Source: Aquila chrysaetos chrysaetos
Taxonomy: Eukaryota; Chordata; Aves; Accipitriformes; Accipitridae
Length of the DNA stretch: 64,000 nt
Reading direction: 5' to 3'
NCBI RefSeq assembly: GCF_900496995.4
Contig: NW_024470382.1
Location: 310,001 to 374,000, forward strand
The notes under the pieces were generated by a model. The model ran no database searches and was not told the DNA's origin. It saw only the letters and a program-made list of their open reading frames with translations. This document shows positions 10,318 to 47,294 of the stretch, one piece after another. Position 1 is the first letter of the stretch, and each line of letters opens with the position of its first letter. A program made the position numbers and the translations under genes.

Positions 10318-10574
10318 AATATCCCCTCCACTTTCCAAGCCAAGAATGGGAACTGTTCAAATGCATAGGACATGTCCAAGACAGACATGCATAGTCAGTT
10401 CTAGGGCCAGTGGTGCTGTACGAGAGTTTAGGAAAGGGTGTGCAGCCAAGACAGCGTTGCCATTGCACCTCTCTTGATCCAGCCTGATAAAGCCTAAACC
10501 AGCTGTTGGGTTTCAGTGAAGCAAGGCCACTTGTACAAGACGTGGTGGGATTTAGAAGCATACTCTGGTCCTTG

Positions 10575-11046
10575 TGCTGAAAGAGGTGTAGTGCAGGATG
10601 GGATCTCCGTGGGGACCACAGCCAAAAGCATCCCAGGTAATCAGCCTTCTACAAGATTTAGATGATTATGCCTACAGAGAGGCTTTGGGGAATCAAAGAA
10701 GGGGAAGGACCTTTGTGGATCTTGGCCAAGAGACGGCTCTGTGGTTTGTGCTCCACAGAGCTTGCAGGGAAGACCAGCTCCTTCAGCTGCCAAAGTACTG
10801 CTTGTAATCAATGACAGCCTTACTTCCTGATAGAGGCAGCCAGAGACACCTGGATGGCTCCAGGCTTGGCAAGACGCTGTCCAGAGAGGGAAGGCTGTCC
10901 CAGGGACAGTGAGCAGTGCCATGGTTGGCACGTCTGTGTTGAGGTCTTGAGCAACGTCCCAGCCAGAAGATGACCCGACTTAGAGAAAGCGTCCTAGCCC
11001 TGTTGGCAGTGAAGGCCAGACCAACTTTATTGTACACGCACTCATG
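10575..11046 (-). repeat. Unclassified repeat unit, copy 1 (in left arm)
   Basis: This sequence has a diverged second copy at 13,768-14,300 and a near-identical inverted counterpart at 45,842-46,318. Read on the minus strand it begins shortly after a CAATAAAG motif, which could hint at an LTR R/U5 border, but no LTR ends or target duplication were found. I cannot name the family, and it may be plain segmental duplication. Confidence 0.6.
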
Positions 11047-12137
11047 GCCAAGCTCCCTAGAGATGATGATGAGCAATGGTCCTGTGGGCCAAGCTTGCCC
11101 AGATAGCTAGTGCAAATGCAAAGAGGGGATCGAGGATTTTGCTGAGTGATGGAGGATGCAGTGCGATTCTCCCAGCATCACATCACCTACCCTTCAGGAT
11201 GTCCACCTCCTCAGCCAGCCCTGGGGCATCTTCCCCCTTAGACATCTGCAGTGCGGGTGTCTGAGTCTGACACCTGACTGCAACTGCCTCCTAGGAGTGC
11301 CTGATGATCTCTGCTGAGCATACAAGGTATCTAAATGCATTTTCCAGGTAGAGAAGTTGGCACGAGGTAGATCCCACCCACGATAGCAGCAGCATCATAT
11401 CCCTGCTCAGCAGTGTGACTGTCTGGGTGGTTCAGCCTTGTAGGGGACCTGGGAGCCTGGCTGTCCCATCCAGGGACAGAGCATCCTGCCACTTGCACAT
11501 CTGGCTTTGTTAAGACTGGGAGGAGGTCTCACACCAACCAAAAAATTAACTGGATTGTGAACACACACAAAGCTTGCAACCAAATTTCACAAAGACTTCC
11601 CGTCTCTTGGGGCAAACATGGGACAAAAGCTGGAAAAAACTTGCCCTGTTGGAAGATGCTGCTTTCAGCAGTGGGAAAAGGTTTCTTACCTCTTCTCATG
11701 CTGCATTACCGGCATGGGATCATACCCATTTTCCCAGCTAGGCCTGGGCACTGATGCCCTATTCCTGCAGCTGCAAGAAGCCAGTCATGGAAGGCAACTG
11801 GCAAAACCCTGTCTCCCCCCATCCCTGCCACTGATGGTCCAGAACCGGCTGTCCTGAGAGGACTTGTTTGCTCTGCAGATTCCCGAAACAGCCCACTTTC
11901 ACAATCATGCAGCTTGCGTGATGCTCATGGCCCAAGAGTCGCTTCCTGGCAGAGGCTTGGCTGTTCATAGTTGTTGAGCGCCTGCCACGGGGCACGGAGG
12001 GAGTTTTTCGAGGTGGAGGGGAGGAGCTGTGACAAGGGGGACTTCTCAAATAGCCAGTGCCTTGGGTGCATGTCCTGCCTCCTTCCTGCCCTGCTCTCCC
12101 GTGGAGACAAGGAGCACACGGTATCTTTGCCACCAAC

Positions 12138-12168
12138 ATGAGGCTTGTCCTGCTGGCATGTCTCTGGG
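12138..12168 (+). CDS. Signal-peptide exon (left-arm copy), possible alternative first exon for gene A
   Basis: ATG at 12,138 encodes MRLVLLACLWG and is followed by a consensus donor GTAAGT at 12,169; the exon ends in phase 1. An identical exon on the minus strand at 40,683-40,653 is the first coding exon of gene B. Here it points toward gene A. Its phase and donor fit SRCR exon A1 (19,455), so a splice from 12,168 to 19,455 would produce an in-frame secretion signal joined to SRCR 1. No SRCR exon lies between it and gene A's own signal exon at 17,436. It may be an active alternative first exon or a silent duplicate; the sequence alone cannot decide. Confidence 0.65.
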
Positions 12169-12512
12169 GTAAGTGAGGTGGGATTTTTTTTCTCTTTGCT
12201 TTTGTCTTGGCATCTCTTTCTCAGTGGTTCTCCTCTTCCACTATCGCTTCTTCCACAGCCAGCAGCACAAAGCAAATGGGACATTGCGAGGAACTGAGAT
12301 GCAATTGGTGGTATTTGATAGCTGAGTGTGGACGCTCAGATCCCCTCAGATGTCACTAGGCAGCTGCCCCACCTTGGCACCAATACCTAGACACCTTGAG
12401 AAGTGTCTCATTCGGGAACTGAATCCCAGTGCTCGTGAGCAAAGACAGCAGCACACAAGGTGGGCTTCCCTGCCCCTGTGTATCTGCTGTGGGTTCCTAG
12501 CCTCTGTGGGTT

Positions 12513-12745
12513 CGTAGAATCATGGAGTGGGTTGGGTTGGAAGGGACCTTTCAAGGTCAGCTAGTCCAAGCCCCCTGCAATGAGCAGGGACATCTTCAAC
12601 AAGATCAGGTTGCTCAGAGCCCCAGCCAACCTGACCTTGAATGTTCCCAGGGATGGGGCATCTACCACCTCTCTGGGAAATCTGTGCCAGTCCTTCACCA
12701 CCCTCATCATAAAAAATGTCTTCCTTGTATCTTCCTTCGTTCCTG
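12513..12745 (-). mobile_element. CR1 3' fragment, minus strand (left arm)
   Basis: This is a 5'-truncated CR1 whose 3' end lies at low coordinates (TAGAATCATGG, the complement of the usual tail). The mirror copy at 40,090-40,308 shows that the insertion predates the inverted duplication. Confidence 0.9.
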
Positions 12746-13672
12746 TGCATCAGGGATGAGACCAGACCTGGTGGCAATGGGCAGAGGCACGGAGCGTGCT
12801 CAGTGGCTACGGTACGTGGGTAGGCACTTGAGGCTCCCAAGAGGATATGTTATCTGAATGCCACTGGAATTTACAGAGAAGGGGGATAACCATTAGGTAT
12901 CTCAGCCCATAAACCTTAGAAGTAGCTAAAAAAAAAAAAAAAAAAAGGCAGATGGGTAAATGACTTGTCAGCAGTTCTGCCCTTGCCCAAAGCTGTTGGT
13001 CAATGCTTGGGATCTTGCCAGACTGCTGCATTTGGGAGCTGAAATCATTGTTTGTGTTCAGCTCTTCATTGCTGTTGACCTTCTACAGTGGGCACAAAGT
13101 CCCCTTCTCCTGAGTTTCCAGGAAAAACAGGTCCTGGCAAGGTTTTCCTCAGGCTTTCCCTCCCAAGGTTTGCCTCCACCTCTAGTTAATCCTCAGGGAA
13201 ATCTGCTGAAGGGGAATAGCCTCTTTGCACAAGTCTCCAGACACATTCCGCCTTGAAGACGCTTCTTTGCACAACCCCACTAGCAGGCCCGTAGCTGTTC
13301 CCGTGGCATTTCATTGCTGCCATTAATGTCTGCAGGACTGACAGCAGTCCTAGGGTTAATTTTGTCTGGTGCCTGCCTGAAGTTCAGAGACAGCAATGCT
13401 TCTTCATGGTCTGGCCCTGACCAACAGGCAAGAATAAAAATGCTGTGCTGCTTGCAACTCATCACATTTTCAGCCGTTTCATTCAGTGGTGTACCTCTTG
13501 CCTGGCTGTTGATGAGAGCAGGGTGTCACACCAAGAGTCTCTAGGCAGAGACAAGCACCTCCAGCCCCAGTTTGACCCTCTGCTGCTCTGGACACCAGCC
13601 CTAGGATGAGATTGGTGTGCATCAGCCATGACTCAAGTCTTTGCACTGGCTGTCACAGGAGCCTAGATAATC

Positions 13673-13715
13673 TAATCTAATGTAATCTAATGTAATCTAG
13701 TCTAATCATCTAACC
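13673..13715 (+). repeat. TCTAA-type microsatellite
   Basis: Short repeats of taatc/taatg lie near the inner end of the left arm. The right-arm counterpart at about 39,131-39,163 is shorter, which is normal microsatellite drift. Confidence 0.8.
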
Positions 13716-13767
13716 CGTCTGGTCACTGACTTTCAGGTGACTGAACATGGACAGCTCTGAAGCACAG

Positions 13768-14930
13768 CCTCGTCCTTGTGCTGAAAAGGTGTAGTGCAGG
13801 ATGGAATCTCCCTGGGGACCACAGCCAAAAGCACCTCAGACAATCAGCCTTCTACAAGATTTAGATGATCGTCCCCACAAAGTGGCTCTGGGGAATCAAA
13901 GAAGGGGAAGAACCTTTGTGGACCTTGGCCAAGAGATAGCTCTGTGTTTTTGTGTACCCCTGAGCCCCCACAGAGCCTGCAGGGAAGACCAGCTCCTTGC
14001 AGTGGTGCAGCTGCCAAAGTACTGCTTGTAATTAATGAGAGCCTTACTTCCTGATAGAGGCATCCAGAGACTCCAGGGGATGGCTCCAGGCTTGGCAAGA
14101 CACTGTCCAGAGAGGGAAAGTTGTCCTGGGGTAGGTAGCAATGCCTTCCCTCATTGCCAGTGGGGTTGACACATCCATGTTGAAGTCTTGAGCAATGTCA
14201 CAGCTAGAAGATGACCTGACTAAAAGGAAGAATACTGGCCCTGTTGGCAGTGAAGACCAGGCCACCTTTATTGCACGCCCGCTCATGGCCAACACATTCT
14301 GCCCAATGAACACCAGGTCAGGAGCTAAGACATAAAAGGAGAGATATAAAACTGCAAGATATTCTCTAAACCCACTGAAATTAGGACCAATTTTTTTCCC
14401 CTCTTTTATTGTCGGGATGCTGAGTGCATCAATAGGTCTTAATTGTTTGAGCCTGGAGCCAACACCCACACCCTCTGGCCAGGGGCTCCATTTAAGCTCA
14501 GGGTTGGAAATTCAACCCTTACTTGAGCTCTGATGTGGGTATGCCTGTTTCCAGCCTTGTTCCTGAGCTGTTGATCAGGATTTTTGTCCTGGATTGACCT
14601 TGGTGCTGGCTCATTACCTTGTCTTCACCTGATGATTATTGTACTGTTGGGAGGTCCCATTGCTCTCATTATCCTTCTCTGCTCTTCTGGTGCTGTGGGA
14701 CTGTTCCCTGTGGGTGAGCTCATTGGTTTGCCTGTGTGGTGGCTGCCCTTAGCTCCTGTCTTTTATTCCTTTAGAGAACAGCTGTGTTCTAATAGGCTAT
14801 AGTCAAATGCCTTCACTCGCATGCTGTGCTCCAAATGTCTGTCTGCCTTGTTCAAACACTTGCATTCAAGCCACACGTGGCTTATCCTGCACCTAGCACA
14901 ATGTTCCTTTCCTTCCCATCCTGTTAACAC
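13768..14930 (-). repeat. Older diverged copy of the gene B 5'-flank unit
   Basis: The segment resembles 45,588-46,318 in inverted orientation, but less closely than the arms resemble each other. Matches are clear at 13,780-14,330 (against 46,310-45,800) and again near 14,820-14,930 (against 45,700-45,588), where both sides read a CSKC/CSGC-like block followed by a WLILH string. It directly abuts the left arm. I read it as gene A's own ancestral 5' flank, related to that of gene B through an older duplication. Confidence 0.6.
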
Positions 14931-15654
14931 CACAGATTTATGTCAATGCTGCAGCACGGCTTTGCATGGACAAATTATGTTACATGCTTCTGAGAAGACT
15001 TCAGGAAAGAGCAATGCAGCAGACTCCCTTCCTCCAAATACAGGGAGGGGAAATAAGCCAAGGCAGAATGTTTTCAAAAGCGGAGGGAGATGTAGGAGCA
15101 GAGGAATGCAGAGCTGCTCCACTACTTGGCCAAAGGCCTATTGTTTCCAGTAAGTGGGGACAAAGAAGATATATAGGGTTATATTAAAGGTCAATAGGAA
15201 TAGGATTGAAGGGTAAACAAGGAACTACAAAGCCAATTGAAGTTGAAGCAAATAGTAAATAGTAGGCTGAAGGAACAACGGCTACTTGAGAAAGACATAT
15301 CTCAATTGAAAATGTGAAATATGAAGGCAGAGCAGGGAGACTAATTGGCACCTCTGACAAAGATCTGGGCATGAGGACTCAGTGGCTCCCTTCAGAGACA
15401 TAGAAGGTGTTGCTGATATTTTATCCACAGCAGATAAGATTTGTTCATTGTTGCTCCGATATCTCATGGGATCTCTCCTCTTGGCATATGGTCTCTGTCC
15501 CTCTTGCAGCCTGCTCTGTTCCTTTCAGTTGCTGGCTCATCTGCTCAATTTTCTTCATGGCATGTGATTCAGTAAAAGACTCTTGATACTTTTATCGTGC
15601 AAATATGACTCAAAATGTGCTTCCTCTTCCATCTAGGAGTCTTCCACGCTTGCA

Positions 15655-15688
15655 TAATGTGTGTGTGGGGGGGGGGGGGGGGGGGGGG
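15655..15688 (+). repeat. (GT)n followed by a 22-G run
   Basis: A short TG repeat runs into 22 consecutive G (15,667-15,688). It is prone to slippage and able to form G-quadruplex, and its exact length is likely unreliable in an assembly. Confidence 0.9.
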
Positions 15689-16629: not shown

Positions 16630-16860
16630 GGCAGGAGTTAATCCACAGAGTCGATGAGGTAGGAAGGGACCTCTTCTTCCTTATCTTGTCCAGCTTCCTG
16701 CTCAAGCAGGGTCAGCTAGAGCAGGTTGTCATGGACAATATTAAGTCAGGTTTTGCATATCTCCAAGGATGGAGACTCTATAACCACTGTGGGCAGCCTG
16801 TTCCTGCGTTTGAGCATCCTCACAGTAAAAAAAAAGTGTTTTCTTGTTTTCCATATGCTC
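16630..16860 (-). mobile_element. Old CR1 3' fragment, minus strand
   Basis: The piece reads as a diverged CR1 end in complement (GGAAGGGACCTCTTC, the GGATGGAGACTCTATAACC block, then CAGTAAAAAAAAAGTG). The divergence indicates an older subfamily than the CR1 copies near 42 and 47 kb. Confidence 0.7.
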
Positions 16861-17435
16861 CCCATTCCTAGAGAGCATTTAAGAGGCAGAGGAACAGGCA
16901 GACACAGAGATCACTCCTGCCTTCTCCAAGAAGACTTCCTAGGGCACTGCCTGTTCACAAGCTAGTCCTGCCAGGAGAATGGCAGTTTTAGAAGTGCCAG
17001 AAATGATTTACTTTTTGCCAAAACAACAGAGGAAGAAAGATTCAGTGCTTTCTAGCAGGGGCTATTTTTCCTTAATATGTTGATGAACAGAAGAGCTTGG
17101 GAGGAGGGAAGTAGCACAGGGAGATGCAAGGAACAGGAGGGAGGGGGCCAGCATTGGAGGGTGAAGGGGGAGAGGCCAATTAAGGGGAGGAGTCAGGGTA
17201 AGAAATATTTGTCATCTGCCTCCCATCTTGGTCCTTACTGTCTTCTCTCCTGCTTCCCCAGCCGGCCACTGAGTCTGTCTCTCCAGAAGGACGATCTTCC
17301 TGCTCTACCCTGCCAACCAGGTCTTCAGGAGCTGGATTGTATAAGGTCTCTGCTGGTACCATGGGACCACTGGGAAATCTTCTCCCACCCAGGGATACCC
17401 ACAGTGGAAGCCTGGCTGCCTTTGCTGGAACCAGG

Positions 17436-17472
17436 ATGGAAACTGTGCTCTTCCTCTTGGCATGTCTTTGGG
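17436..17472 (+). CDS. Gene A exon 1: signal peptide
   Basis: The ATG at 17,436 sits in a fair context (ACCAGGATGG). [13 protein letters not shown] is a short hydrophobic signal core that shares LLACLWG with the gene B exon. Donor GTAAGT follows at 17,473 and leaves phase 1, matching every SRCR exon acceptor. The signal cleavage site would fall at the junction or in the first residues of SRCR 1. Confidence 0.8.
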
Positions 17473-20400
17473 GTAAGTTTTCTCCTTTGCTCCTGGAGAA
17501 CAGGGTTCTGGATACGGCCCGACAAATGGGACTTGTGATGGATTGACCCCTCTTGTATCCCCAGCCTTGGCAAGGAAATGGGTTTCGTGGCTGGAATAAG
17601 TGACTGAAGATCCAGAAAGCTTGAGTTTTAACCTCTGGCACTGGAAAAGGGCTTGACGTTTCTGAGACAAGAGAAGAGTGTAGTAGAGCTGATAATTTGG
17701 CTTCTGAAGGTCACCTAGAGATTTAGAGGCATTAACAATGCAAACATACAGAGGCAAACCCTGGGAACAAACAAATGCAAGCATAAAGACAGAGCTTCCT
17801 TTGACTGATCTGTGTAATCCAGAATGTAGTCCTGTTTTTTTCCTCCACCCTAGAGTCACAGTCTGTGTTGGAGCCAGGACCTAAGAGTGAATAAGCATAG
17901 CAGACCTCTGTTGCCTCCCTGTCAGAGTCAGTGCTTAGTGCAGCTGCATTTGTGTCCTGCAGATCAGCATAATCCAATAATTTAAACTAAAAAAGTAGTA
18001 AAAGAATTGGATAAGGATTATCCTAAAACAGTGATGTTGGTTTTTAACAAAATCTGTTACAAGTTGAGGCTGTTTCAGGGGCTAGGATGAAGTAAAGGCT
18101 GTGCCAGATCTGTAAATGATGAAGGAGGATGATCTGGGAATTTAAAGCTTGTTAGAAAAATATCTGTGCTTTCCACCAGCATAGAAGGGTGGACCTGGCA
18201 AGCCTTAGATGGCAGCCCTTGCTCTAAAGCCTCTGATATAGGCGTATAAAGGCCGTGGGGAGCAGCGCCCAGGACAAAAGATGTAGACACAGTTTAAGCA
18301 TCTGACAGGGCCTTTCTGAGTAAGGAGGGATCTTCGGCATCTTCTGCCAGGCTTGGATCCCAACAGTAGCCTGGATTTTCCTTATACCCATAACGGGAAA
18401 GAGGCCTTTCTCTACCTCAAGTCTTCCTCCCTTATGGATGGATGTTGATTGGAAATACCTTCTTTTCTGCATTGTATGGGAGTCCAGTTGTTTAGCACGG
18501 ACAGCACTGCAACTGTCAGCAGCTGGGAGGTGAATCCTACCCTATGGACTGTAGGTAGTTGCCTCAATGTAGGTGCCTAGAGCCATTGGAGTTGTCCTAG
18601 TTTCTCAATCCTGGACTCCAACTACTGCTCTGGAGGCTGCAGACCTACAAATGGCACTAGAAACCTTCATTTAGGTGAACAAACTACGCTCCACATGGCA
18701 CCAGGTGAGCAAGCTCTGGATAGCAAAGTTCTGACAAGCATCTCGGACAAGGATGTGGATACCCTAATTTGTCCCCAGGGAAGTGACCTGAAAGCTTCCT
18801 TTGATAACTTGCACGATACAGGGAGAGTGGCAGAACTCAGGAGGAATGGCCACAGTCTTGTGCATGGAGCAGGGAGCTGCACAATGAGGGTGGGGAGGGA
18901 TGATCTCAGCCCCATGGTGCCACAGTAGCTCAGGTTGTGTGGAGGCATATACTCCAGGACCTCCAGAATCTTCCTAAGGACCATAATCTGAGGTTTTCCT
19001 CTCATCTTCCGTGCAGGGCAGAGTCTAGGGTCTCCGTGGTGTGGAGCTGTCACACACCATGTCGGAGGGCATGTTGGGACTGTTGCATGACTGGCAATGA
19101 TTGGTTCTCATTCAAGGTTTTGAATATCTGGCGTGTGTCTGGCAGAGACATATTAGTAGGAATCCCATGATCGGATCTGTTGTAGGTGACTAAGATCTTG
19201 CAGCTGCTTATAGAGATGCAGAGATGTGTTAGAGGTCCTAACACCATCTGTGCAAGAAATTTACACCACTAATTAACCATCAAGCTTTTCTTATAATGTT
19301 CCTGCTGGAAAAAAAGTGGTGAGCATTTCAGCAATCCTTCTCCAGACAGACCCAAAATGGCATTATTCCTGCAAGAGCAAGATGTTACGTTCTCCACTAT
19401 CAGCCAAAACCTGGCTTATGCCCATTTTCCACCTTGGCTTCTTTTGGGATTCAGGTGTTGCCAACTCAGCTCCCATCAGACTTGCAAGTGGCCCCAGCCG
19501 CTGCGCAGGGCGGCTCGAGGTGCTTTGGGAACAGCAGTGGGGAACCGTGTGTGATGATAACTGGGATCTGTCCGACGCCATGGTCGTATGCAGGCAGTTG
19601 GACTGTGGTGACGCACTGTCAGCCCCTGGCTCGGCTCACTTTGGTCAAGGAACTGGTCGTATCTGGCTGGATGACATGAACTGCACCGGTACAGAAGCTG
19701 ACCTTACTGCCTGCAGGACCAGACCCTGGGGAGAGCATAACTGCAATCATGAAGAAGACGCAGGCGTTGTGTGCTCAGGTAACTCATGTTTCCACCCCTC
19801 CCCTTGTGACCCCAGGAGGCTGTGCTGTGTAGAGGGATGTTCTTAAGCCTGTTTGCAAAATTTTATTTCTCCATCAGTGCTACCCTCAGGGCTCAGGATG
19901 GGGATGGCTGCTTCAGGCAGTGGCCTGTACCATGCCAAGGACAACGTTATCCAGCTCAGTTAAACACTGTGTGTGGGGGCGGTGGTGTTTGTGCTCATCC
20001 TGTTACTGGGGCAGAACAGAGATCGTAGGTTTTTTTCCCCAGTCCACATTATTCTTGCCTCTTATGCCATCACCATGAATTTAGCAGGTAAGGAGACTGA
20101 AGAATGCCCACCAGGACGCACATGCTTTCCATGCACATATTTCATGGCTGAAGTATGCCAGGGAAGTTGAGCATTTATGTGGCCTCTTTCCATTTGTATT
20201 TTGTGACAATACTCTCTCCTTGTGGATGTGTCTATTCTCCAGACTGGGACTGGGATGACAGATTCAGTTGTGGGTCACTTGTCTGTGAGCCAGTCCTAAC
20301 TTGGATGTTACAGCATGATGCTAATGAATGCTGGGCTCCAGGAATTGGTTGGGGAAGGCTTGAAGGTGTGCCCTACCCCTCTACATCATGGTTAACTGGG

Positions 20401-33064: not shown

Positions 33065-33087
33065 AAAAAAAAAAAAAAAAAAAAAAA
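33065..33087 (+). repeat. Poly(A) tract, about 23 A
   Basis: A homopolymer lies between the converging genes. No retrocopy body was recognised upstream of it. Confidence 0.9.
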
Positions 33088-33929: not shown

Positions 33930-34049
33930 CTGAATCTTGCTGGCCCATCTTGCTGCAGCAAGATGAGCATGGTCTAGTGGGGCCAGTCTGGTACTCATGG
34001 TGCTTCTGGCTCCTCCAGATTCTTGTTAACTGCAGAGAAAGGGAGCAAG
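33930..34049 (+). CDS. Candidate membrane-anchor exon of gene A
   Basis: A pyrimidine-rich acceptor (CCTTCACCTTCCCAG) precedes 120 nt that are open in phase 1 and end at CAAG/GTAAAG, the phase the chain needs. The translation contains a hydrophobic run GLVGPVWYSWCFWLLQILV followed by NCREREQ, as in a type I membrane segment with a charged cytoplasmic start. The hydrophobic run is short, and no family match can be confirmed by eye. Without splicing, the frame continues to a stop at about 34,150. Confidence 0.3.
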
Positions 34050-34207: not shown

Positions 34208-34278
34208 GAGCCAGGACGGGACTGTATGAACTGCAGAATGCACTGACTGATCTAGAGGACTGCAGCACATGGTCCTGA
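34208..34278 (+). CDS. Candidate cytoplasmic-tail exon of gene A
   Basis: Acceptor GGGCCCTGCAG/GAGCC, if joined to 34,049, gives GARTGLYELQNALTDLEDC and a few more residues before a TGA at 34,276. The acidic, tyrosine-containing tail would suit a receptor, but this rests on splice phase and composition only. Confidence 0.2.
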
Positions 34279-34932: not shown

Positions 34933-35262
34933 CTGCACAAACAACATCAGCATCCTCTCCGTGATAGCAGTTGTGTTCACCCCATGGCCTGGCCTGACAG
35001 TCAAAGATGCTCTCTTCCGTCCCGTTGCATTCAACATCGTCCAGCCAGATGATGTCTGACCCTCGCCCATAGCGGGCACCTCCCATAGCCGACAGCGGTG
35101 ACCCGCAGCCCACCTGCTTGCACACCACCTTGGCATCCTTCATGTCCCAGTGGTCATCACACACACTGCCCCACCGGTTCTCGTGGAGCACCTCGACTCT
35201 CCCAGCACACTTGTTCGGGCCATCCACGAGCCGGACTGGCCCCTGCTCAGGAATGTCCACCT
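34933..35262 (-). CDS. Gene B exon 5: SRCR domain B4
   Basis: Acceptor GGTGCAG/AGGTGG, donor GCAG/GTAACT. The domain reads EVDIPEQGPVRLVDG, CDDHWDMKDAK, WLDDVECNGTEES and VVCAG, with eight cysteines and an NGT sequon. GCGSPLSAMGGARYG is a variant of the usual LSAP segment. Confidence 0.92.
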
Positions 35263-38200
35263 CTGCACCAGTACCCAGAAAATAAATGTTAAGAGAGCAT
35301 CCTACACACCCCACCACCTGTGGAAGGCTTGCCTGCTCGGCAGAGGCTCAGGTGTCTCTGAGCACACCAGCGATATGGCAAGGGCCAGGCTTCTCTGGAG
35401 TGGGAAGGAAGACAGAAAAGCCAGGGAGAGGGGCTGTGGGAAAAGGGCAGGAGGAAGCTTCCCTGGTCTTCATGGATGGCTGCAGGCTCTACTGTGTGTC
35501 TGCTTCAAGGAGTCTGCTGATGCTAGTCACCCTGCAGCCCAGAGGTGGACAAGGGACCAGAGCAGTTTCAGGTAAGAGAGGATTTAATGCTGCTCCTGGT
35601 CAGCTATATCCATGTGTTGTCCCTAGGTCATTGGGCAAGCACTGCACCCAGTGATGGGATGAGTTAATCAGCTGCGTCCCTCTCTTGTTCCCACCAGCAG
35701 ATATCCACAGAGCTGCACTGGGGCTCGGGACCAGCCCTGATTCAGGCAGGGGGCATGTGTGTGGTGGAATCTGCCCATCCTACTGCCCAGCACGCGCAGG
35801 ATGCGGGATGGAGGGGGGGTTACCTGAGCACTCCACACTGGCATCTTCTACGTGGTTGCAGATGTTGTCTCCCCACAGCTTTGCCTCGCATTCAGTGAGG
35901 GACTCTTCTGTCCCTGTGCAGTTCACGTCACTCAGCCAGATCTGGCCCTTCCCTTCCCCGTATTTTGACTCCGGAGGGGCTGATAGCACCGTCCCACAGC
36001 CCAGCTGCCTGCACACAACCTTTGCCTCCCGTAAATCCCACTGGTCATCGCAGACGGTCCCCCAGACGCCATTGTGAAGCACCTCGACTCTCCCGGAGCA
36101 GCGGTTGGGGCCACCCACCAGGCGGACTGAAGTGGAGACGGTGATCCCTGAGTCTGCAGACACATCCAGAGAGGGCATGCTCAGGCTGTGCATCGGTGTG
36201 TGTGTCCCCTCTTCCCTGAGTATCCCCGCCCTGCCCTCCACACAGCAGCCTCTCCTGCATAGCTTTCTCCACATATAACATGCAACTGTCCAAGCAAGAA
36301 GAACAATGGCAGTCTTAACCTCAAGCCTGAGCTGAAGAAAAATGGCCACAGAGCACCCCAGTAAGCAGAGAGGAGAGAACCTCCCAGACTGAAGCCCTCT
36401 TCCGTGGTGTAAGGACCCCAGGCCACCAGCAGGACTATTAGGTTAGCACCAACCCAGTAGGAGAGTGCCTCATAGGAAGCCCTTGGTCCTGTCCAAGGTT
36501 GTGCCCATGTTGACAGTGAAGGCACCCTAATGCATGGCTGGCAAAAGCAGGAGAACTGAAGGATTACCTGAACAAATTGCACTGGCATCTTCCCCGTGGT
36601 AACAGTTGTGGTCCCCCCACGGCCTCGCCGGGCACTCAGAGAGAGCAGCTTCCACTCCTGTGCAGTTCACGTCATCCAGCCAGATGGTGTCAAATCCTCG
36701 TCCAAACTTGGCTCCAATGGGGGCCAGCACCGCATCCCCACAGCCCAGTTGCTTGCACACGACTTGGGCATCATTTAGATCCCAGTTGTCATGGCACACG
36801 CTGCCCCACTGTTCCTCGTGAAGCACCTCAACCCTCCCAGCACATCGGTTCGGGCCTCCCACCAGACGGATTGGTCCTGGCTCAGGTATTTCTGTTTCTG
36901 CCAAAAACAAATGAGGGGAAAGTTTTGGGACATGTCTCTGTATCCCTGATCACCTGGAGAAAGCAGAATCTCCCATGATGCACCAAAACTGTCTCTGTTC
37001 ATCCCAAGTGCCTGTCAAAGGCTCCTTTCCTAACTTCTGGCTTAAGAAGAAAAGTTGAAGGGAAAATAGTATCAGCATGGAGGCCATCAGGGAAGGGAGG
37101 GGACTATCTGTGTCCTCTCCCATCTCTGCAGGTTGTTCCAGGTCCAGGAGTTGTGATGCAACTTCTCTGGGTCAAGCAGGGTAGGAAGCTGGAGCTGAAC
37201 AAAGTCATTCTGCATCCCTGACCTCCTAACTGGATGGGTCAGAAATTGCACCCTGGCTTATTTGAGGCAGAAGGGCCAATGTGGCACAAAGTAGAAAACA
37301 CCTGGGGGTTACCTGAGCACTCCACGCTGGCATCTTCTACGTGGTTGCAGATGTTGTCTCCCCACGGCTTCGCCTTGCATTCGGCGAGGGATGCTTCTGT
37401 CCCTTTGCAGTTCACGTCGCTCAGCCAGATCTGGCCCTTCCCTTCCCCGTATTTAGACTCCCGAGGGGCTGATAGCGCTGTCCCACAGCCCAGCTGCCTG
37501 CACACAACCTTCGCTTCCCGTAAATCCCACTGGTCATCGCAGACGGTCCCCCAGACGTCCTTGTGAAGCACCTCGACTCTCCCGGAGCAGTGGTTGGGGC
37601 CACCCACGAGGCGGATCTCATGTTTGCTTGTGTCTACATCTTCTGGAGAGACCAGACACCCCAGGGTGAAGGCAGGGAATGAGAAAGAGGGCTTTTCCTC
37701 CCCAGGGAGACTGTCTTTATTGCCAAACCAGGAGGAAGAAAAGCCCAGGATATTCTAGCATCCCAAATCTTTGGTGGTTGGGAGCCGGGTTTTGAGCTCG
37801 GAATGGCCAAAAGCTGCAGGTGTTTGTGGGACCATAAGTCTGTTTTGAGATACAAATCACAGGGTTCATTTTCAGCTGTAAAGGGAGATGTGTAGTCCCC
37901 CCAAAACCTACCACAGCATTCAGGTTCTGGGTAAGTGTCCCCAGAGTTAAGGCCTGTGTCTCCCAGCAAATGCTGCTACAAGGATTGGAAGCAGGGAGGA
38001 GAGAATGGAAACATTTCTACCCATTTCCCAAGGGGAAGGGTTGGGTTTTCTCAGCTGTTGGCAGTGATTCCTGGGTGCAGTTGTGGCCCTACAGCCAGTC
38101 AGCACTTGGGAGTGGAAAGGACCTACTCAGTCCTGTTCCTGCTGTTGAACCCACCAGGACACACAATCACTCTGAAAACCTGGCTCCAGTTGCCAAACCT

Positions 38201-40683
38201 CTGATCACAACACTGTTTGCCACCTAATATCAAGAACCAAATCTCTCTGGATACCGTTGTCCCTTTGCACAGATCTGGGGTGCTGTAGTGGGAGAAATTC
38301 GGGGACTAAAAAGTGCCAGGGTCAGAAACCCTGAAGCACCTCCACACTGGCTCATGGAGCCAAGGGGACACCAGGCATTCTTCCGTCTCATGGAGATCAG
38401 ACCCCAGCATCAAGGGTATCCCAACTTCTGGTTTAACTTCACTAAAATGAGCGGCTGTTTTGTCAATGTTTTGGATCAGTACTGCCCCTTTCACCCAGAA
38501 ATCTCCAGCCAGCTGCACCTCACAGAGCATACAGGAGCTAGAGTCAGGTCTTCTCCATCAGCTAATCAGGAGAATGTGGTTTACAGAAAGATCATTGGCC
38601 ACAGAAGCAGGTATCAGACCAAGGTCTCTCGGCCTCAGGCAGCATATTTAAATCTCCAGATCAGACATAGCATCATTCTGCATGACATTTTATGATAGCT
38701 GTGTGTGCTGACTCATGCTCCACTCTCTACTACAAATACTGACCTGCCAGCAGGACTCCTGCAAGGGAAGCTGAAATAGAAGAAACACAGGCTATTAGTC
38801 TGAGTCTTATGAGCTCTGCAGAGTGCAGAGATTCAGGACAGCAAAACAAGGCAAGAGACAAGACTCTGTGAGCTCTGTTAGGGCCCATCATTGCTGTCTG
38901 TCTCCCTAACTCAGCTGTCAATTGGCTTTGCCTATCCTAGTGCATGTCCACAGGACTTTCTTGATAAAGAGATCAGATAAGGAGAGAAAACCTAAAAAAA
39001 AGCCCAAACCAACCTACTGGGGGAAAAAAAAAAAATTGGTTTGGGCAGATAATGTGAAAATACCACAGCAGAGCAGTTGGGGTTTCTCTTGTCCATGTTC
39101 AGTCACCTGAAAGTCAGTGTTCAAACAGGTTAGATTAGATGATTAGATTAGATTATCTAGGCTCCTGTGACAGCCAGTGCAAAGAGCAGAGTCATGGCTG
39201 ATGCACACCAATCTCATCCTAGGGCTGGTGTCCAGAGCAGCAGAGGGTCGAACTGGGGCTGGAGTCTCTGCCTAGAGACTCTTGGTGTGACACCCTGCTC
39301 TCATCAACAGCCAGGCAAGAGGTACACCACTGAATGAAACGGCCGAAAATGTGATGAGTTGCAAGCAGCACAGCATTTTTATTCTTGCCTGTTGGTCAGG
39401 GCCAGACCATGAAGAAGCATTGCTGTCTCTGAACTTCAGGCAGGCACCAGACAAAATTAACCCTAGGACTGCTGTCAGTCCTGCAGACATTAATGGCAGC
39501 AATGAAATGCCACGGGAACAGCTACGGGCCTGCTAGTGGGGTTGTGCAAAGAAGCGTCTTCAAGGCGGAATGTGTCTGGAGACTTGTGCAAAGAGGCTAT
39601 TCCCCTTCAGCAGATTTCCCTGAGGATTAACTAGAGGTGGAGGCAAACCCTGGGAGGGAAAGCCTGAGGAAAACCTTGCCAGGACCTGTTTTTCCTGGAA
39701 ACTCAGGAGAAGGGGACTTTGTGCCCACTGTAGAAGGTCAACAGCAATGAAGAGCTGAACACAAACAATGATTTCAGCTCCCAAATGCAGCAGTCTGGCA
39801 AGATCCCAAGCATTGACCAACAGCTTTGGGAAAGGGCAGAACTGCTGACGAACCCAGACAAGTCATTTACCCATCTGCCTTTTTTTTTTTTTAGCTACTT
39901 CTAAGGTTTATGGGCTGAGATACCTAATGGTTATCCCCCTTCTCTGTAAATTCCAGTGGCATTCAGATAACATATCCTCTTGGGAGCCTCAAGTGCCTAC
40001 CCACGTACCGTAGCCACTGAGCACGCTCCGTGCCTCTGCCCATTGCCACCAGGTCTGGTCTCATCCCTGATGCACAGGAATGAAGGAAGATACAAGGAAG
40101 ACAATTTTTTATGATGAGGGTGGTGAAGGACTGGCACAGATTTCCCAGAGAGGTGGTAGATGCCCCATCCCTGGGAACATTCAAGGTCAGGTTGGATGGG
40201 GCTCTGAGCAACCTGACCTCGTTGAAGATGTCCCTGCTCATTGCAGGGGGCTTGGACTAGCTGACCTTGAAAGGTCCCTTCCAACCCAACCCACTCCATG
40301 ATTCTACGAACCCACAGAGGCTAGGAACCCACAGCAGATACACAGGGGCAGGGAAGCCCACCTTGTGTGCTGCTGTCTTTGCTCACGAGCACTGGGATTC
40401 AGTTCCCGAATGAGACACTTCTCAAGGTGTCTAGGTATTGGTGCCAAGGTGGGGCAGCTGCCTAGTGACATCTGAGGGGATCTGAGCGTCCACACTCAGC
40501 TATCAAATACCACCAATTGCATCTCAGTTCCTCGCAATGTCCCATTTGCTTTGTGCTGCTGGCTGTAGAAGAAGCAATAGTGGAAGAGGAGAACCACTGA
40601 GAAAGAGATGCCAAGACAAAAGCAAAGAGAAAAAAAATCCCACCTCACTTACCCCAGAGACATGCCAGCAGGACAAGCCTCAT
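34933..40683 (-). CDS. Gene B: secreted or membrane multi-SRCR protein, four SRCR domains seen
   Basis: Minus-strand coding exons: 40,683-40,653 (signal peptide), 37,642-37,313, 36,897-36,568, 36,153-35,824 and 35,262-34,933. Each SRCR exon is 330 nt, phase 1-1, and encodes one group B domain with eight cysteines. Each is two residues longer than the gene A exons because of longer N-terminal linkers. Domains B1 and B3 resemble each other (WDLREAK, GKGQIWLSDVNC, NICNHVEDASVEC), and B2 and B4 also pair (PEPGPIRLV/PEQGPVRLV, HNCYHGED). This suggests duplication of a two-exon unit. The gene converges on gene A with about 3 kb between their last SRCR exons. The last donor (34,932) shows that a further exon exists; I did not find it. 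Confidence 0.9.
35824..36153 (-). CDS. Gene B exon 4: SRCR domain B3 (twin of B1)
   Basis: Acceptor GTCTGCAG/ACTCAG, donor TCAG/GTAACC. It carries LHNGVWGTVCDDQWDL, then IWLSDVNCTG (NCT sequon), where S replaces the first D of the usual LDD, and ends VECSG. Eight cysteines are present. Confidence 0.92.
36568..36897 (-). CDS. Gene B exon 3: SRCR domain B2 (twin of B4)
   Basis: Acceptor TTTTTGGCAG/AAACAG, donor TCAG/GTAATC. Unusual features: VCHDNWD in place of VCDD, so one acidic residue is replaced by His; GDAVLAPIGAKFGRG; and the end AICSG. Eight cysteines and an NCT sequon are present. Confidence 0.92.
37313..37642 (-). CDS. Gene B exon 2: SRCR domain B1
   Basis: Acceptor TCTCTCCAG/AAGATG, donor TCAG/GTAACC. 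Linker EDVDTSKHEIRLVGG. It shares IWLSDVNC and NICNHVEDASVECSG with B3. A 3-kb intron separates it from the signal exon, and the outer half of that intron lies within the right arm of the duplication. Confidence 0.92.
40090..40308 (+). mobile_element. CR1 3' fragment, plus strand (right arm)
   Basis: Mirror of the CR1 piece at 12,513-12,745. The 3' end is at CCATGATTCTACG near 40,308. Confidence 0.9.
40653..40683 (-). CDS. Gene B exon 1: signal peptide
   Basis: ATG at 40,683 on the minus strand encodes MRLVLLACLWG and ends in phase 1 before GTAAGT. The same 31 nt, with long near-identical flanks, occur at 12,138-12,168 on the plus strand. This copy is positioned to be the original, since SRCR exons in the same sense follow it. 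Confidence 0.8.
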
Positions 40684-42296
40684 GTTGGTGGCAAAGATAC
40701 CGTATGCTCCTTGTCTCCACGGGAGAGCAGGGCAGGAAGGAGGCAGGACATGCACCCAAGGCACTGGCTATTTGAGAAGTCCCCCTTGTCACAGCTCCTC
40801 CCCTCCACCTCGAAAAACTCCCTCCGTGCCCCGTGGCAGGCGCTCAACAACTATGAACAGCCAAGCCTCTGCCAGGAAGCGACTCTTGGGCCATGAGCAT
40901 CACGCAAGCTGCATGATTGTGAAAGTGGGCTGTTTCGGGAATCTGCAGAGCAAACAAGTCCTCTCAGGACAGCCGGTTCTGGACCATCAGTGGCAGGGAT
41001 GGGGGGAGACAGGGTTTTGCCAGTTGCCTTCCATGACTGGCTTCTTGCAGCTGCAGGAATAGGGCATCAGTGCCCAGGCCTAGCTGGGAAAATGGGCATG
41101 ATCCCATGCCGGTAATGCAGCGTGAGAAGAGGTAAGAAACCTTTTCCCACGGCTGAAAGCAGCATCTTCCAACAGGGGAAGTTTTTTCCAGCTTTTGTCC
41201 CATGTTTGCCCCAAGAGACGGGAAGTCTTTGTGAAATTTGGTTGCAAGCTTTGTGTGTGTTCACAATCCAGTTAATTTTTTGGTTGGTGTGAGACCTCCT
41301 CCCGGTCTTAACAAAGCCAGATGTGCAAGTGGCAGGATGCTCTGTCCCTGGATGGGACAGCCAGGCTCCCAGGTCCCCTACAAGGCTGAACCACCCAGAC
41401 AGTCACACTGCTGAGCAGGGATATGATGCTGCTGCTATCGTGGGTGGGATCTACCTCGTGCCAACTTCTCTACCTGGAAAATGCATTTAGATACCTTGTA
41501 TGCTCAGCAGAGATCATCAGGCACTCCTAGGAGGCAGTTGCAGTCAGGTGTCAGACTCAGACACCCGCACTGCAGATGTCTAAGGGGGGAAGATGCCCCA
41601 GGGCTGGCTGAGGAGGCGGACATCCTGAAGGGTAGGTGATGTGATGCTGGGAGAATCGCACTGCATCCTCCATCACTCAGCAAAATCCTCGACCCCCTCT
41701 TTGCATTTGCACTAGCTATCTGGGCAAGCTTGGCCCACAGGACCTTTGCTCAGCATTGTCTCTAGGAAGCTCAGAGGCAGGTGCAAAATAGCTCAGCTGA
41801 ACATACAGAAAATACGCTTCACAACTGAAGACACACAGGAATATCTTTCATGCCAGGGACTCTCCGTTGGACAGACAAGTTTTTGTGCAGCTCTGAGGTG
41901 CTCCTCTGCTTAGACTGTACAACCCAGGGACTGCTTGCAACACCTCCTTTGTCTTCCCCATGCCAAGGAAGAGTGTGAAGATACCCTCTGGAGATGACAG
42001 ATGACAGAACGTCCCTGGCAGAAATGGAGGGTAGGAGTGGGTGACCACTCACAGAAAAGGTGAAGGAGAGTAGAGGTAGCAAGTCTTTTCTTTGCAACAG
42101 CCGCTCCAGCAGATGAAAGGTGAAGGTGATAGGCCAGAAAAGCAGGCCTGAATAAATACAAATCTCAGGCCACCAAGGACCACGGCCTTCTCAAAGACAT
42201 GCATCAGTCCAAGTTTCAGTCAGGTCCATATGAAATTCAGTATCAAAGCTGTGTGTGGTGGAGGAGAGCATTGCATCCAGCTGAGAGCAGATTTAT

Positions 42297-42707
42297 CATA
42301 GAATCATAGAATAGTTTGGGTTGGAAGGGATCTTTCAAGGTCAGCTAGTCCAAGCCCCCTGCAATGAGCAGGGACATCTTCAACAAGATCAGGTTGCTCA
42401 GAGCCCCAGCCAATCTGACCTTGAATATTTCCAGGGATGGGGCATCTACCACCTCTCTGGGCAACCTGTTCAAGTGTTTCACCACCTTCATCATAAGAAA
42501 GTTCTTCCTTATATCTAGCCTGAATCTGCCCTCTTTTAGTTTAAAACCATTACCCCTTGTCCTATCACAACAAGCCCTACTAAAAAGTTTGTCCCCATCT
42601 TTCTTATAAGCTCCCTTTAGGTATTGAAAGGCTGCAAGAAGGTCTCCCCGAAGCCTTCTCTTCTCCAGGCTGAACAACCCCAACTCTCTCAGCCTTTCTT
42701 CATAGGA
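42297..42707 (-). mobile_element. CR1 fragment with ORF2 C-terminus, minus strand
   Basis: A 5'-truncated CR1. The tail is at 42,297 (ATAGAATCATAGAATAG) and the frame reads [20 protein letters not shown] and [20 protein letters not shown]. It is well preserved over about 110 codons. Confidence 0.92.
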
Positions 42708-43293
42708 GAGAACACAGATGAGCTCTGTATCTTAGCATTTGAAGACTGTTCTCATCTGTTTGCTTAGTTTTCAGTTTTGCTCATTGAGTACATTTTCAAT
42801 CTCTCCATCTCTGTCCTGTTTTCTGTGCTTAGATAGCTGTTACTGCCTCCCTTCTGGACAGTCTCCAGCAGTTGGCCAACACCCTTCTTGAAAGCTGATG
42901 CACACACCCAGCCACTGATGAGCAGCAGAGACCTCAGGTCTGCTGGGAAAAGACAACAGTCACACAGACATCTCGTGTGTGGGAGGACCCCCTGTTCCAG
43001 AATCCTCAGGTGAGGTTTGCTTTTGTCGCAATACCCATAGGTTGTTGAGCCATAGCCTGTTGTGCTTTGATACTGATCCTTAGGTTCTTCCCACTTGCAG
43101 GGAGTCTGGCCAGTGATTCCTGGTTTGTATTTGTACAGTCGATTGCTCACTTGATAGTTAATCCCAACAAACCTGTGTTTGTTGATAACACTTGGCATGT
43201 TATCCTCTAGGTGGCTACAAATAGAAGTATTGGCTTTGTGCTCAGTGTTTTTCCAGGAACTGGATTTAGACTGAATCTTCTAAAATTCACCAG

Positions 43294-43445
43294 AGTTCCT
43301 TCCTCCCTCCCTCCCTTCTTCTCTCCCTCGTTCCCTCTTCCTTCCTCACCTCCTTCCTCTTTTCCTTCCTTCCCTCCTTTATTCTTCTCTTCCTCTCTTT
43401 CTTTCTCTCTTCCTCTTTCATTCATTTATTCGTTCATTCATTTCT
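43294..43445 (+). repeat. Pyrimidine (CT)-rich low-complexity tract
   Basis: About 150 bp of nearly pure C and T with TTCC/CCTT words, ending in TTCATTCATT repeats. The complementary open frames are composition artefacts. Confidence 0.9.
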
Positions 43446-45841
43446 CTTAAGACCCAAGTGGATCGAAGTGTAACTTTAACTATGTAGGGAGGCTTGGAGC
43501 AACTGACTGTACGTGAGGGTCCTTGCGTGGAGTGGTGTCCCTTGTACTATATGACAAGTCTTGACATTCGCTGTGGCTTTCCTGAAATGTTCTGGAGTTT
43601 CTCAGCATCTTTTACTTGGAGTACCCAAAAATTCAAACAGAAATTCCTCTTTTCTCCCTGCTGACCTGTTGAAAACACAGTCCTACCCAGCCCTGACACC
43701 TCTCCTCAGGACACTCTGAAGATAACCCAAATTTCCTGATTTTTCTTCAGCCATACACTGGTCCTGTGCATGCAAACCAGGGAACACAGTGACTTTGGCT
43801 GCTTTAGCATCATTGCTGTCAGTCAGTTCTCAACATGGAGCAGCAGAGACCTGCTGTTTATTTAACCAGGCACTCGATCTCTTCCAAGGCAAGCAGTGAC
43901 CATGCTGTCATTATCACTTTCTTGGGCAGGCTGGGATCAAGATTTAATATCACTGGCATTCGTAGGGTAAAAACTCAACCATTTGTTGAGTTTCATCATC
44001 AGACCTGCTATTTTGATCAAGCTTTAATATCACCAGGATTCTTAGGGTGAAAACTCAACCATTTATCCTTTCATCGTCAGACCTGCTATGCTGAAGGCGG
44101 CTCAGTGGACCACTCCATGCAGCCAAGGCATGAACCAGCTCACATTCACACCGCTGAGAGTTAGTGCCACACGAAGCAGACTAGCTATGCTCATTCTGCA
44201 TGGTGCTTGGTTTGGACGGGCTCTTTGTTCCACACCTGAGGATACATTTGCATTGTTTCTCAGCTCAAAATGATTGAGGTAGTAGGAATTTTTTTTTTAA
44301 GCCTGCCAGAGAGTTGTTTTCTGTAGAATGAAGACGAGATGTGTTGGGTACGCGGGGGAACGGCAGGGAAGTGTGTGCATGGGGAGGGCAGAGCTGGCTA
44401 CAACAGAGCTGGAGCAGAGAGAGGCAAAAGCAGTGTGATACATCTCTACACTGGGGCGGGCTCTGGTGTGAACTGCCCCTCACCTGGGCTCTGGCTTTCC
44501 CTGGTGAAAATATGTGCTTTGATCTAGAAGAGAGGGTGGATGGGATTAGCACGTGTGCCGTGTAAACACAGAGGGAACAGGTGAGAAACGAGTTCACAAA
44601 GAGATACCGTGTTTGGGACCTGATGTCTATGCCCTGGGGCAAGGTAAAATTTACAGCTGCAGCTGGTTGATCTGAGGTGAGAAGGTGTAAGTGTGTAAAG
44701 ATGGGAAGGATGCTCTCCACGTATCTGAGGAGACTCATCCGAAGAGAACTGAAGTGTGCTCTGGTTGCATTCTCCCTCTGGAGGCCATGAAAACACATTC
44801 CCTGAGCACAGGGATTACTTTCTATGGCTTAACGAGGGCTCTGCTTATTAAGAGTGAGCTAGGAGGAGGAAGGGTAATCAGGAACTGAACTTTTTTTTTG
44901 CTAGGACAGCTGTACTTGCTGTATTTTCTTTGGGCTTGTCTCCTGCTGAAAAGGAGTTTGAGTAACTCTGGATGGACAAGGCACATTGTTTCCCAAAGCC
45001 AGCAAAACCCTTTAGTGGTCTCATCTTTGATGGAACACCTTTGCATGCACCATAGCAAATCCCACCCGGCCTCCATCTGATACCCTGATGTCTCTAAAGG
45101 CAAGGTGGGTGGGATATGTGCACTGACTGATGCTGGAGTCACCCTGTAGTGTCCAAGACATCTTCATCAGGTTATAAATATGGCACAAGAATAAACAGAG
45201 ACTAGAAATTTTATGTAGTGGAAGACTGCCTATAATTAGACAAATGAGCCCTTTCCTGGGTGTCTGCAGTGTCAGCACCTACATCCGATTAGTAGACATT
45301 CAGGGTTCCTCTTATAATTACTGATGATTTAGTCGATATACATAGTTCAAAGTAGTATTTGGCCTCTGCAAGACATTGAGCATGGCCCAGCCCTTTGTCA
45401 ACAAGTGCTGTGCCAGGGTCCTTGGGGACCTGACAGCTCTCCATGTCCATTCCCACATCCCACTCTCCTTTTACATTGGCTTTTTCCCCTCCCCATACTT
45501 AGGATTGGGGCAGAGGGGGCTGTTGCACCAAGGCTCCATGGTATTGGCTCTTAAAAAGCCTTGCTGAGGCATTGACCCAAACCTCAGCTTTTAGCAGGAT
45601 GGCATGGACAGAAATGTTGTGCTGGGTGTAGAATGAGCCACATATAGCTTGAAGGCAAACATTTCAATAAGGTACCCAGACATCCAGAGCATAACACATG
45701 AATGGGGTCATTTGACTGTACTTTATATAAGAGGAAACAATTTTGACTGTGGTTTTGGGGGGCACCTTCCAATGCTGTGTCACAAACTCTTTCTCATTAT
45801 TTCTCAACTTGTGACCTGGTGGTCCTTGGGCACAATGTGTT

Positions 45842-46528
45842 GGCCATGAGTGGGTGTGCAATAAAGGTAGCCTGGCCTTCACTGCCAACAGGGCTAGAAC
45901 GCTTTCTCTAAGTCGGGTCATCTTCTGGCTGGGACGTTGCTCAAGACCTCAACACAGACGTGCCAACCATGGCACTGCTCACTGTCCCTGGGACAGCCTT
46001 CCCTCTCTGGACAGCGTCTTGCCAAGCCTGGAGCCATCCAGGTGTCTCTGGCTGCCTCTATCAGGAAGTAAGGCTGTCATTGATTACAAGCAGTACTTTG
46101 GCAGCTGAAGGAGCTGGTCTTCCCTGCAAGCTCTGTGGAGCACAAACCACAGAGCCGTCTCTTGGCCAAGATCCACAAAGGTCCTTCCCCTTCTTTGATT
46201 CCCCAAAGCCTCTCTGTAGGCATAATCATCTAAATCTTGTAGAAGGCTGATTACCTGGGATGCTTTTGGCTGTGGTCCCCACGGAGATCCCATCCTGCAC
46301 TACACCTCTTTCAGCACAAGGACCAGAATATGCTTCTAAATCCCACCACGTCTTGTACAAGTGGCCTTGCTTCACTGAAACCCATCACCTGGTTTAGGCT
46401 TTATCAGGCTGGATCAAGAGAGGTGCAATGGCAACGCTGTCTTGGCTGCACACCCCTTCCTAAACTCTTGTACAGCACCCCTGGCCCTAAAGCTGACTGT
46501 GCATGTCTGTCTTGGACATGTCCTATGC
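45842..46528 (-). repeat. Right arm of inverted duplication, outer part
   Basis: Reverse complement of about 10,363-11,047. It includes the repeat unit seen at 10,575-11,046 and ends at TCCTATGC, where a CR1 is inserted. Confidence 0.92.
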
Positions 46529-47249
46529 TGGGTGGTGAGTGGACTGAGAGCAGCCCTGCGGAGAAGGACTTGGGGGTGTTGGTTGACGAGCAGCTCAACA
46601 TGATCTGGCAACGTACATTTGGAGCCCAGAAAGCCAACCATATCCTGGGCTGCATCAAACGAAGCGTGACCAGCAGGTCAAGGGAGGGGATTCTGCCCCT
46701 CTACTCCGCTCTTGTGAGACTCCACCTGGAGTACACCATCCAGCTCTGGGGCCCCCAACATAAGAAGGACATGGACCTGTTGCAGCGAGTTCAGAGGAGG
46801 GCCACAAAGAGGATCAGAGGGCTGGAGCACCTCTCCTGTGAGGAAAGGCTGAGAGAGTTGGGGTTGTTCAGCCTGGAGAAGAGAAGGCTCTGGGGATACC
46901 TTATAGCAGCCTTGCAGTACGTAAAGGGGGCCTGCAAGAAAGCTGGAGAGGGACTTTTTGCAAGGGCATGTAGTGATAGGGCAAGGGGTAATGGCTTTAA
47001 ACTGAAAGAGGGTAGATTTAGATTAGATGTAAGGAAGTTCTTTACTGTGAGGGTCATGAGGCACTGGAACGGGTTGCCCAGAGAGGCTCTGGATGCCCCC
47101 TCCCTGGAGGTGTTCAAGGCCAGGTTGGATGGGGCTTTGAGCAACCTCGTCTAGTGGAAGGTGTCCCTGCCCATGGCAGGGCAGTTGGAACTAGATGATC
47201 TTTAAGGTCCCTTCCAACCCAAACCATTCTATGATTCTATGATACTATG
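46529..47249 (+). mobile_element. CR1 insertion in the right arm only
   Basis: A 5'-truncated CR1 with a long open C-terminal ORF2 part ([59 protein letters not shown]) and a 3' tail CATTCTATGATTCTATGATACT. The flanks TCCTATGC and ATTTGA are contiguous in the left arm (near 10,362), giving an empty site. It therefore inserted after the inverted duplication formed. Confidence 0.93.
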
Positions 47250-47294
47250 ATTTGAAGAGTTCCCATTCTTGGCTTGGAAAGTGGAGGGGATATT
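47250..47294 (-). repeat. Right arm, terminal 45 bp beyond the CR1
   Basis: ATTTGAAGAGTTCCC and the following bases to GGATATT match the reverse complement of 10,318-10,362. Homology stops at 47,294, fixing the outer edge of the duplication about 460 bp downstream of the SULT2 stop codon. Confidence 0.9.

Follow-up and report, generated by a model that had tools for sequence, protein, structure and literature searches.

Inverted arms that carry the PIT54 5′ end in Aquila chrysaetos: a probable duplication toward a converging nine-SRCR gene, with proposed later gene conversion

In mammalian Xq28, the inverted repeats at FLNA-EMD flank two genes and undergo both gene conversion and recurrent inversion, and they lie outside genes. 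The inverted arms that we describe here differ in that they carry the 5′ end of a gene, PIT54; they lie in Aquila chrysaetos chrysaetos, in a 64,000-nucleotide stretch (assembly GCF_900496995.4, contig NW_024470382.1, positions 310,001 to 374,000) that we call the window and number from its first letter. A close counterpart is the 24-kb flip/flop region on Saccharomyces chromosome XIV, whose near-identical 4-kb inverted repeats are continually homogenised and whose inversion has been kept across the genus; at such a scale it sets a precedent both for the homogenising of inverted repeats and for repeated flipping (PMC9731477). The yeast repeats contain expressed genes, whole gene pairs, and their inversion has been demonstrated, whereas each raptor arm is a 5′ flank with a first exon, next to two different genes, and their inversion is predicted (PMC9731477). 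Conversion between arms also keeps identity high in mammalian X-chromosome palindromes, as we propose for this locus, although those palindromes sit on sex chromosomes and the arms in the window are 3.4 kb long with a 25-kb spacer (PMC8981503).

Chicken PIT54 is a secreted haemoglobin-binding chaperone of the CD163 family in a bird without haptoglobin (PMC8081666), and PIT54 is counted as a minor acute-phase protein of birds (PMC8935721). Chicken PIT54 and CD163L (SCARI39, SCARI38) belong to the same family as the genes considered here and are their probable orthologues, and the part of that account covered mentions neither an inverted duplication nor a shared promoter (PMC12032555). In the WC1/CD163 family, multi-SRCR group B genes have expanded in birds and within-family conversion has already been suggested, although it concerns domains across members and not a duplicated 5′ region (PMC2906472). 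Inverted duplication, conversion and promoter capture all have precedents; what would be new is a haemoglobin-scavenger 5′ flank and signal exon placed before a converging neighbour, with a junction exon and a gene-sparing inversion. We found no such arrangement described in the open-access literature searched, as judged mostly by titles and the starts of abstracts. If our reading is correct, the locus would be a natural instance of promoter sharing via inverted duplication in which a new exon was born at the join, and it would let two questions be tested cleanly in a vertebrate, namely whether duplicated 5′ regions are held alike by conversion and whether gene-sparing inversion recurs.

The arms were compared by self-BLAST, and their two long blocks then by global alignment. 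Arm A runs from 10,318 to 13,758 and arm B, which is inverted relative to it and broken up twice, from 39,069 to 47,294; the inner ends, 13,758 and 39,069, were placed via a sea-eagle (Haliaeetus) protein discussed below. Their parts are as follows, all delimited by self-comparison unless stated otherwise.

10,318–13,758, plus strand: arm A, duplicating the 5′ region of PIT54 and oriented like the plus-strand gene (inner end from the sea-eagle peptide)
39,069–41,771, minus strand: arm B inner block, with exon 1 of PIT54, the beginning of its intron 1 and roughly 1.1 kb of upstream DNA (also aligned)
41,772–45,839, no strand: 4,068 bp found in B alone, a stretch that A has probably lost
45,840–46,528, minus strand: arm B outer block (also aligned)
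46,529–47,244, plus strand: CR1-like insertion in arm B, later than the duplication (empty site in A)
47,245–47,294, minus strand: outermost piece of arm B

By self-BLAST, the inner blocks (39,090–41,771 against 13,753–11,051, inverted) are 97.2% identical with gaps, the outer blocks (45,840–46,528 against 11,051–10,363, inverted) 97.8%, and the outermost 50-bp pair (47,245–47,294 against 10,368–10,318) 96.1%. Global alignment of the long blocks gives 98.5% identity, with 49 mismatches in 3,359 aligned bases and six insertions or deletions that sum to 45 bases. The earlier note on this DNA had put the identity of the inverted arms at about 98% by eye, and the alignment bears this out. One break in B is a 716-bp piece with an empty site in A; we presume this and the other arm-associated repeat pieces to be CR1 from the look of their frames. 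The other break, 4,068 bp without counterpart in A, was probably a loss from A. We ranked insertion into B behind this because a block next to arm A, R_A, aligns with B unbroken beyond the breakpoint, as far as 45,797. The R blocks, placed by self-comparison and genome search, are these.

10,555–11,051, plus strand: block R within arm A, cut at 11,051 by the probable 4.07-kb loss
45,797–46,336, minus strand: block R in B, unbroken past the deletion point of A
13,759–14,335, plus strand: block R_A, an older duplicate (81%) of 45,797–46,336

Between the arms lie nine plus-strand and four minus-strand SRCR exons, in agreement with the count in the earlier note. Twelve of these exons served to build a local profile, which matched 13 open frames, and a Pfam SRCR search of the bird's own genome placed the identical 13 in the window above its cut-off. 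With splice sites picked by eye, all 13 are in one phase, each of the nine plus-strand exons measuring 324 bp and each of the four minus-strand exons 330 bp.

On sequence grounds, the minus-strand gene is PIT54. Its model of seven exons encodes 470 residues, is open from ATG to stop and has GT-AG splice sites; its best solved-structure match is 9h0m_E, 'PIT54 protein', over residues 1–468 (978 bits, against 843 for CD163 (M130)). The 439-residue SRCR part is 95.4% identical to a Calonectris protein, and PIT54 is 93.6% identical to a Pygoscelis protein and has 16 residue mismatches to P0022, a Haliaeetus model that reads across introns. Each of the four SRCR domains has eight cysteines, as expected of group B, and the signal peptide is split over exons 1 and 2.

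40,653–40,683, minus strand: PIT54 coding exon 1, within arm B, encoding MRLVLLACLW plus one base and followed by GTAAGT
38,744–38,770, minus strand: PIT54 exon 2, remaining signal peptide, beyond the arm (gene model)
34,933–37,642, minus strand: four PIT54 SRCR exons, 37,642–37,313, 36,897–36,568, 36,153–35,824 and 35,262–34,933 (profile, Pfam and model)
33,995–34,029, minus strand: last coding exon of PIT54, ending VNKNLEEPEAP and stop (gene model)

The plus-strand gene appears, from its nine-SRCR match to a Gallus protein, to be avian CD163L1-like. It is 84.1% identical over 971 residues to that protein (P0178, 'CD163 molecule like 1') and 96.0% identical to a Haliaeetus protein named DMBT1. 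In a comparison of 54 domains from six species, its domains 1, 2, 3, 6 and 9 cluster by position, whereas the 5/8 and 4/7 pairs do not.

17,262–17,472, plus strand: the gene's own signal-peptide exon, ATG at 17,436, phase 1 donor (sequence and sea-eagle protein)
19,455–31,934, plus strand: nine SRCR exons of the CD163L1-like/DMBT1-like gene, starting at 19,455, 21,185, 22,714, 24,245, 25,040, 25,801, 28,121, 29,268 and 31,611

The arms, on this evidence, duplicate the 5′ end of PIT54, a point that the earlier note had missed. Arm B contains the PIT54 5′ flank, the signal-peptide exon and the start of intron 1 (about 1.6 kb of that intron). Arm B is the original and arm A the copy, because PIT54 exons 2–7 follow arm B only, exon 2 lying outside it. 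Arm A is oriented toward the plus-strand gene and lies upstream of it, and the copied exon is intact. A single mismatch, at 12,117, separates the arms over the proximal flank and exon 1 (11,724–12,245).

12,138–12,168, plus strand: copy of PIT54 coding exon 1 in arm A, identical to the arm B exon, encoding MRLVLLACLW plus G, phase 1, GTAAGT donor intact
12,512–12,732 (A) and 40,088–40,309 (B), no strand: dispersed CR1-like fragment present in both arms (self-comparison and genome search)

Joined straight to the first SRCR exon of the plus-strand gene, the copied exon is in frame and free of stops, and the resulting leader resembles the gene's own signal start. Part of this leader is read through in protein models from a heron (P0018) and a magpie-goose (P0016), where it looks similar by eye. 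A simple signal-exon pattern picked out three exons (PIT54 exon 1, its arm A copy and the plus-strand gene's signal exon) as well as one frame within an SRCR exon.

As whole units the arms are low in copy number, although partial copies may lie elsewhere in the genome. A search of the genome (1.23 Gb, 144 contigs) with the core of the arm, 11,100–13,700, found two full-length matches, both arms themselves, among the 40 of 3,112 candidates that were scored, and the other 38 were short, all of one 221-bp CR1-like fragment. On that scored set the pair has the properties of a segmental duplication, namely low copy, more than 1 kb, more than 90% identity and the inclusion of non-repeat sequence. 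Across 164 kb surrounding the locus there were 216 inverted self-matches, and the best 25 of them included no additional arm copy beyond CR1-like pieces, and minisatellites dominate the 45 direct self-matches listed. Rfam searches at gathering thresholds and tRNA searches gave no matches. Block R yielded three candidates and three matches genome-wide, all inside the window; as an observation in its own right, the R/R_A pair (81%), which lies upstream of both genes, may date from an earlier event that duplicated a shared 5′ region.

The inner edge of arm A coincides with a chimeric exon that appears to have been created by the duplication's join.

13,737–13,788, plus strand: chimeric 5′ exon of the plus-strand gene, with its acceptor side from PIT54 intron 1 and its donor side (AAG/GTGTAG) from R_A (sequence and sea-eagle model)

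The sea-eagle protein P0144, an annotation model, begins MDKRNPNCS-EAQPRPCAEK-PATESV. Its residues 1–9 are an exact match to the inner edge of arm B, from 39,096 downward; residues 10–19 match R_A from 13,759, and the next 71 residues match 17,262 onward with a few changes. The junction exon in the window is 15 bp shorter than its sea-eagle counterpart. Because the sea-eagle model carries the same arm/R_A junction, it is strongly suggested that the duplication is older than the split from Haliaeetus.

The distribution of the remaining differences between the arms suggests exchange between them. For a test of where the mismatches fall, those at most 3 bp apart were merged, and the microsatellite at 13,660–13,712 and the 50-bp outer piece were excluded, which left 34 mismatch events in 3,332 sites. 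Fifteen of these fall among the 347 sites at most 100 bp from a non-homologous boundary, against 19 among 2,985 sites elsewhere (hypergeometric p = 4e-7), a divergence of 4.3% at the edges and 0.64% in the arm interior. Between the window and Haliaeetus, at least 10 of 408 non-coding bases differ (at least 2.45%), a figure drawn from four hand-picked stretches seen via two Haliaeetus protein models, in which silent changes are invisible. The arm interior is less divergent than this orthologous sequence (Fisher p = 0.0014), also when the orthologous introns alone are used (6/234; p = 0.0076), and the same holds for all arm events, 34/3,332 (p = 0.018). The arms are thus apparently older than the species split and yet closer to each other than orthologues are, and it is therefore strongly suggested, on this indirect test, that ectopic gene conversion holds the arm interior near-identical and fails near non-homologous boundaries.

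Judged from the domain sequences, conversion is also at work among the SRCR exons of the plus-strand gene, independently of the arms. The exons at 25,040–25,363 and 29,268–29,591 (domains 5 and 8) encode domains that are 98% identical. Pairing of these two domains within a species has good support in the window, in Gallus and in Dromaius, and weak support (80/79) in Haliaeetus. Gallus alone shows such pairing for domains 4 and 7.

We consider it probable, from the sequence, that an inverted segmental duplication brought the PIT54 5′ end to the upstream side of the plus-strand gene and that conversion followed, with the sharing of a PIT54-type promoter and a harmless inversion as possible consequences. 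The duplication would have carried PIT54 upstream DNA, exon 1 with the signal start and about 1.6 kb of intron 1, and the copy would have landed, in the same sense, upstream of the converging nine-SRCR CD163L1-like gene. Arm A may then offer that gene a PIT54-type promoter, the flank being read as a promoter because it precedes PIT54 exon 1. A transcript starting there could be spliced by way of the chimeric exon to the gene's own signal exon, or the copied exon 1 could be joined directly, in frame, to an SRCR exon. Crossing-over between the arms, which have identical stretches of 429, 392 and 346 bp in common, would flip the interval from 13.8 to 39.0 kb (about 25 kb), leaving PIT54 and the plus-strand gene whole and exchanging only their distal upstream DNA. 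Both the use of the arm A promoter and the inversion are predictions of this account. Further still, the locus might act as a 'same-ends' switch, in which arms kept alike by conversion over millions of years let the 25 kb flip without harm to either secreted scavenger gene, each flip changing which distal upstream DNA stands before which gene. Both orientations would then occur among raptor populations, with differing levels of haemoglobin scavenger; we regard this extension as improbable.

Conversion would be superfluous if the inverted duplication were recent and the arms alike through youth, with no later exchange. An overall identity of 98.5% suits such a history, as does the modest age implied by one insertion and one deletion since. 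It is in this context that several points weigh against our own account. The longest mismatch-free run, 430, is no longer than chance would give (P 0.30), as a recent duplication would also have it. The boundaries in the mismatch test were chosen after the data had been seen, the rearrangements themselves could account for part of the mismatches beside them, and the orthologue comparison has the narrow basis given with it. Nor does conversion appear to be general: domains 5 and 8 show no within-species pairing in two ducks, and in PIT54 the identity of domains 1 and 3 to each other is 89.1%, below the 95.0% and 94.1% to their Haliaeetus orthologues, with no sign of recent conversion there. A recent duplication must nonetheless explain why the junction exon is common to the Haliaeetus model, though non-coding orthologues differ by at least 2.45%, and why mismatches crowd so strongly at the boundaries, and we think it unlikely. 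The earlier note had called the duplication recent, a description that does not survive a junction already present in the Haliaeetus gene model and arms that look homogenised.

A different doubt concerns whether arm A does anything. The arm may be in decay and without function, so that its exon 1 would be a relic and the 5′ exon of the sea-eagle model an accident of annotation, and here too some of the evidence goes against us. With a signal exon of its own, the plus-strand gene may have no need of arm A, which is without 4.07 kb of distal upstream DNA, and the first 90 residues of P0144, used as a query, found only their own protein cluster (one of 72 candidates; 25 member sequences). Against decay, the exon, its donor and its frame are intact and a single mismatch is found across the proximal flank and exon, although conversion alone could also explain this; this alternative strikes us as a serious possibility, if a somewhat doubtful one. 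Far less credible is a false duplication in the assembly. Such arms are hard to assemble and a 100-N gap lies directly beyond the left end of the window, yet the window itself contains no N, the copies differ by the 716-bp insertion, the 4.07-kb stretch, 49 mismatches and six insertions or deletions, and the sea-eagle protein model spans an identical junction, so that we hold an artefact to be very unlikely. That the arms are two transposable element insertions is suggested by the CR1-like pieces in and next to them, and a transposon or long terminal repeat origin was also raised by the direct block R repeats around arm A. The latter was dropped because the three copies of R are all local and the arm has two full-length matches; in the scored candidates dispersal is confined to the 221-bp CR1-like piece, a host coding exon lies within the arms, and none of five scanned frames (four in or across arm A, one in R_A) has a Pfam domain. 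We give this origin almost no credence. Inverted duplication followed by conversion remains the reading that we prefer.

The inverted duplication that the earlier note saw around two converging multi-SRCR genes is real, and its layout suits exchange and inversion. Two further suggestions of the note concerned what the arms and genes might do. It had described an immune receptor cluster, which as a set of membrane receptors is not supported; a Kyte-Doolittle scan 3′ of either gene found no convincing transmembrane stretch (none at 2.0 over 21 residues, the best being 1.78 over 19), and we dropped membrane receptor genes for that reason. PIT54 is a secreted haemoglobin binder (PMC8081666, in the part covered), and the product of the plus-strand gene is apparently secreted as well. 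It had also raised exchange between the two genes, which the sequence suggests for the arms only. The genes show no apparent recent exchange of their SRCR exons, the PIT54 of the window being 61–63% identical at the amino-acid level to plus-gene proteins of other birds, an appraisal made with no formal test. A long-range hairpin was set aside as unlikely given the 25-kb spacer.

Around the locus, a probable sulfotransferase gene lies upstream of PIT54 at about 48,100–50,500 (minus strand), where the frame 49,092–49,619 matched PF00685. To the right of the window, the same contig (C90, 380–446 kb) extends the cluster with another block of SRCR exons, most of which are minus-strand. Elsewhere in the genome, 14 SRCR exons spaced about 839 bp apart and with near-identical scores form a homogeneous tandem array (C11:5,392,559–5,403,759, minus strand), and many others occur in recurring clusters over about 1 Mb (C32, 120 kb–1.13 Mb, and C33–C35), which suggests an expansion of multi-SRCR genes. 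The window also contains minisatellites at 54,257–56,943 and 57,459–58,345, with units of 52 bp (about 51 copies) and 83/164 bp, and, at about 2,900–6,521 on the minus strand, a long interspersed element, presumably of the CR1 type, with long open frames, two of which match endonuclease and reverse transcriptase families.

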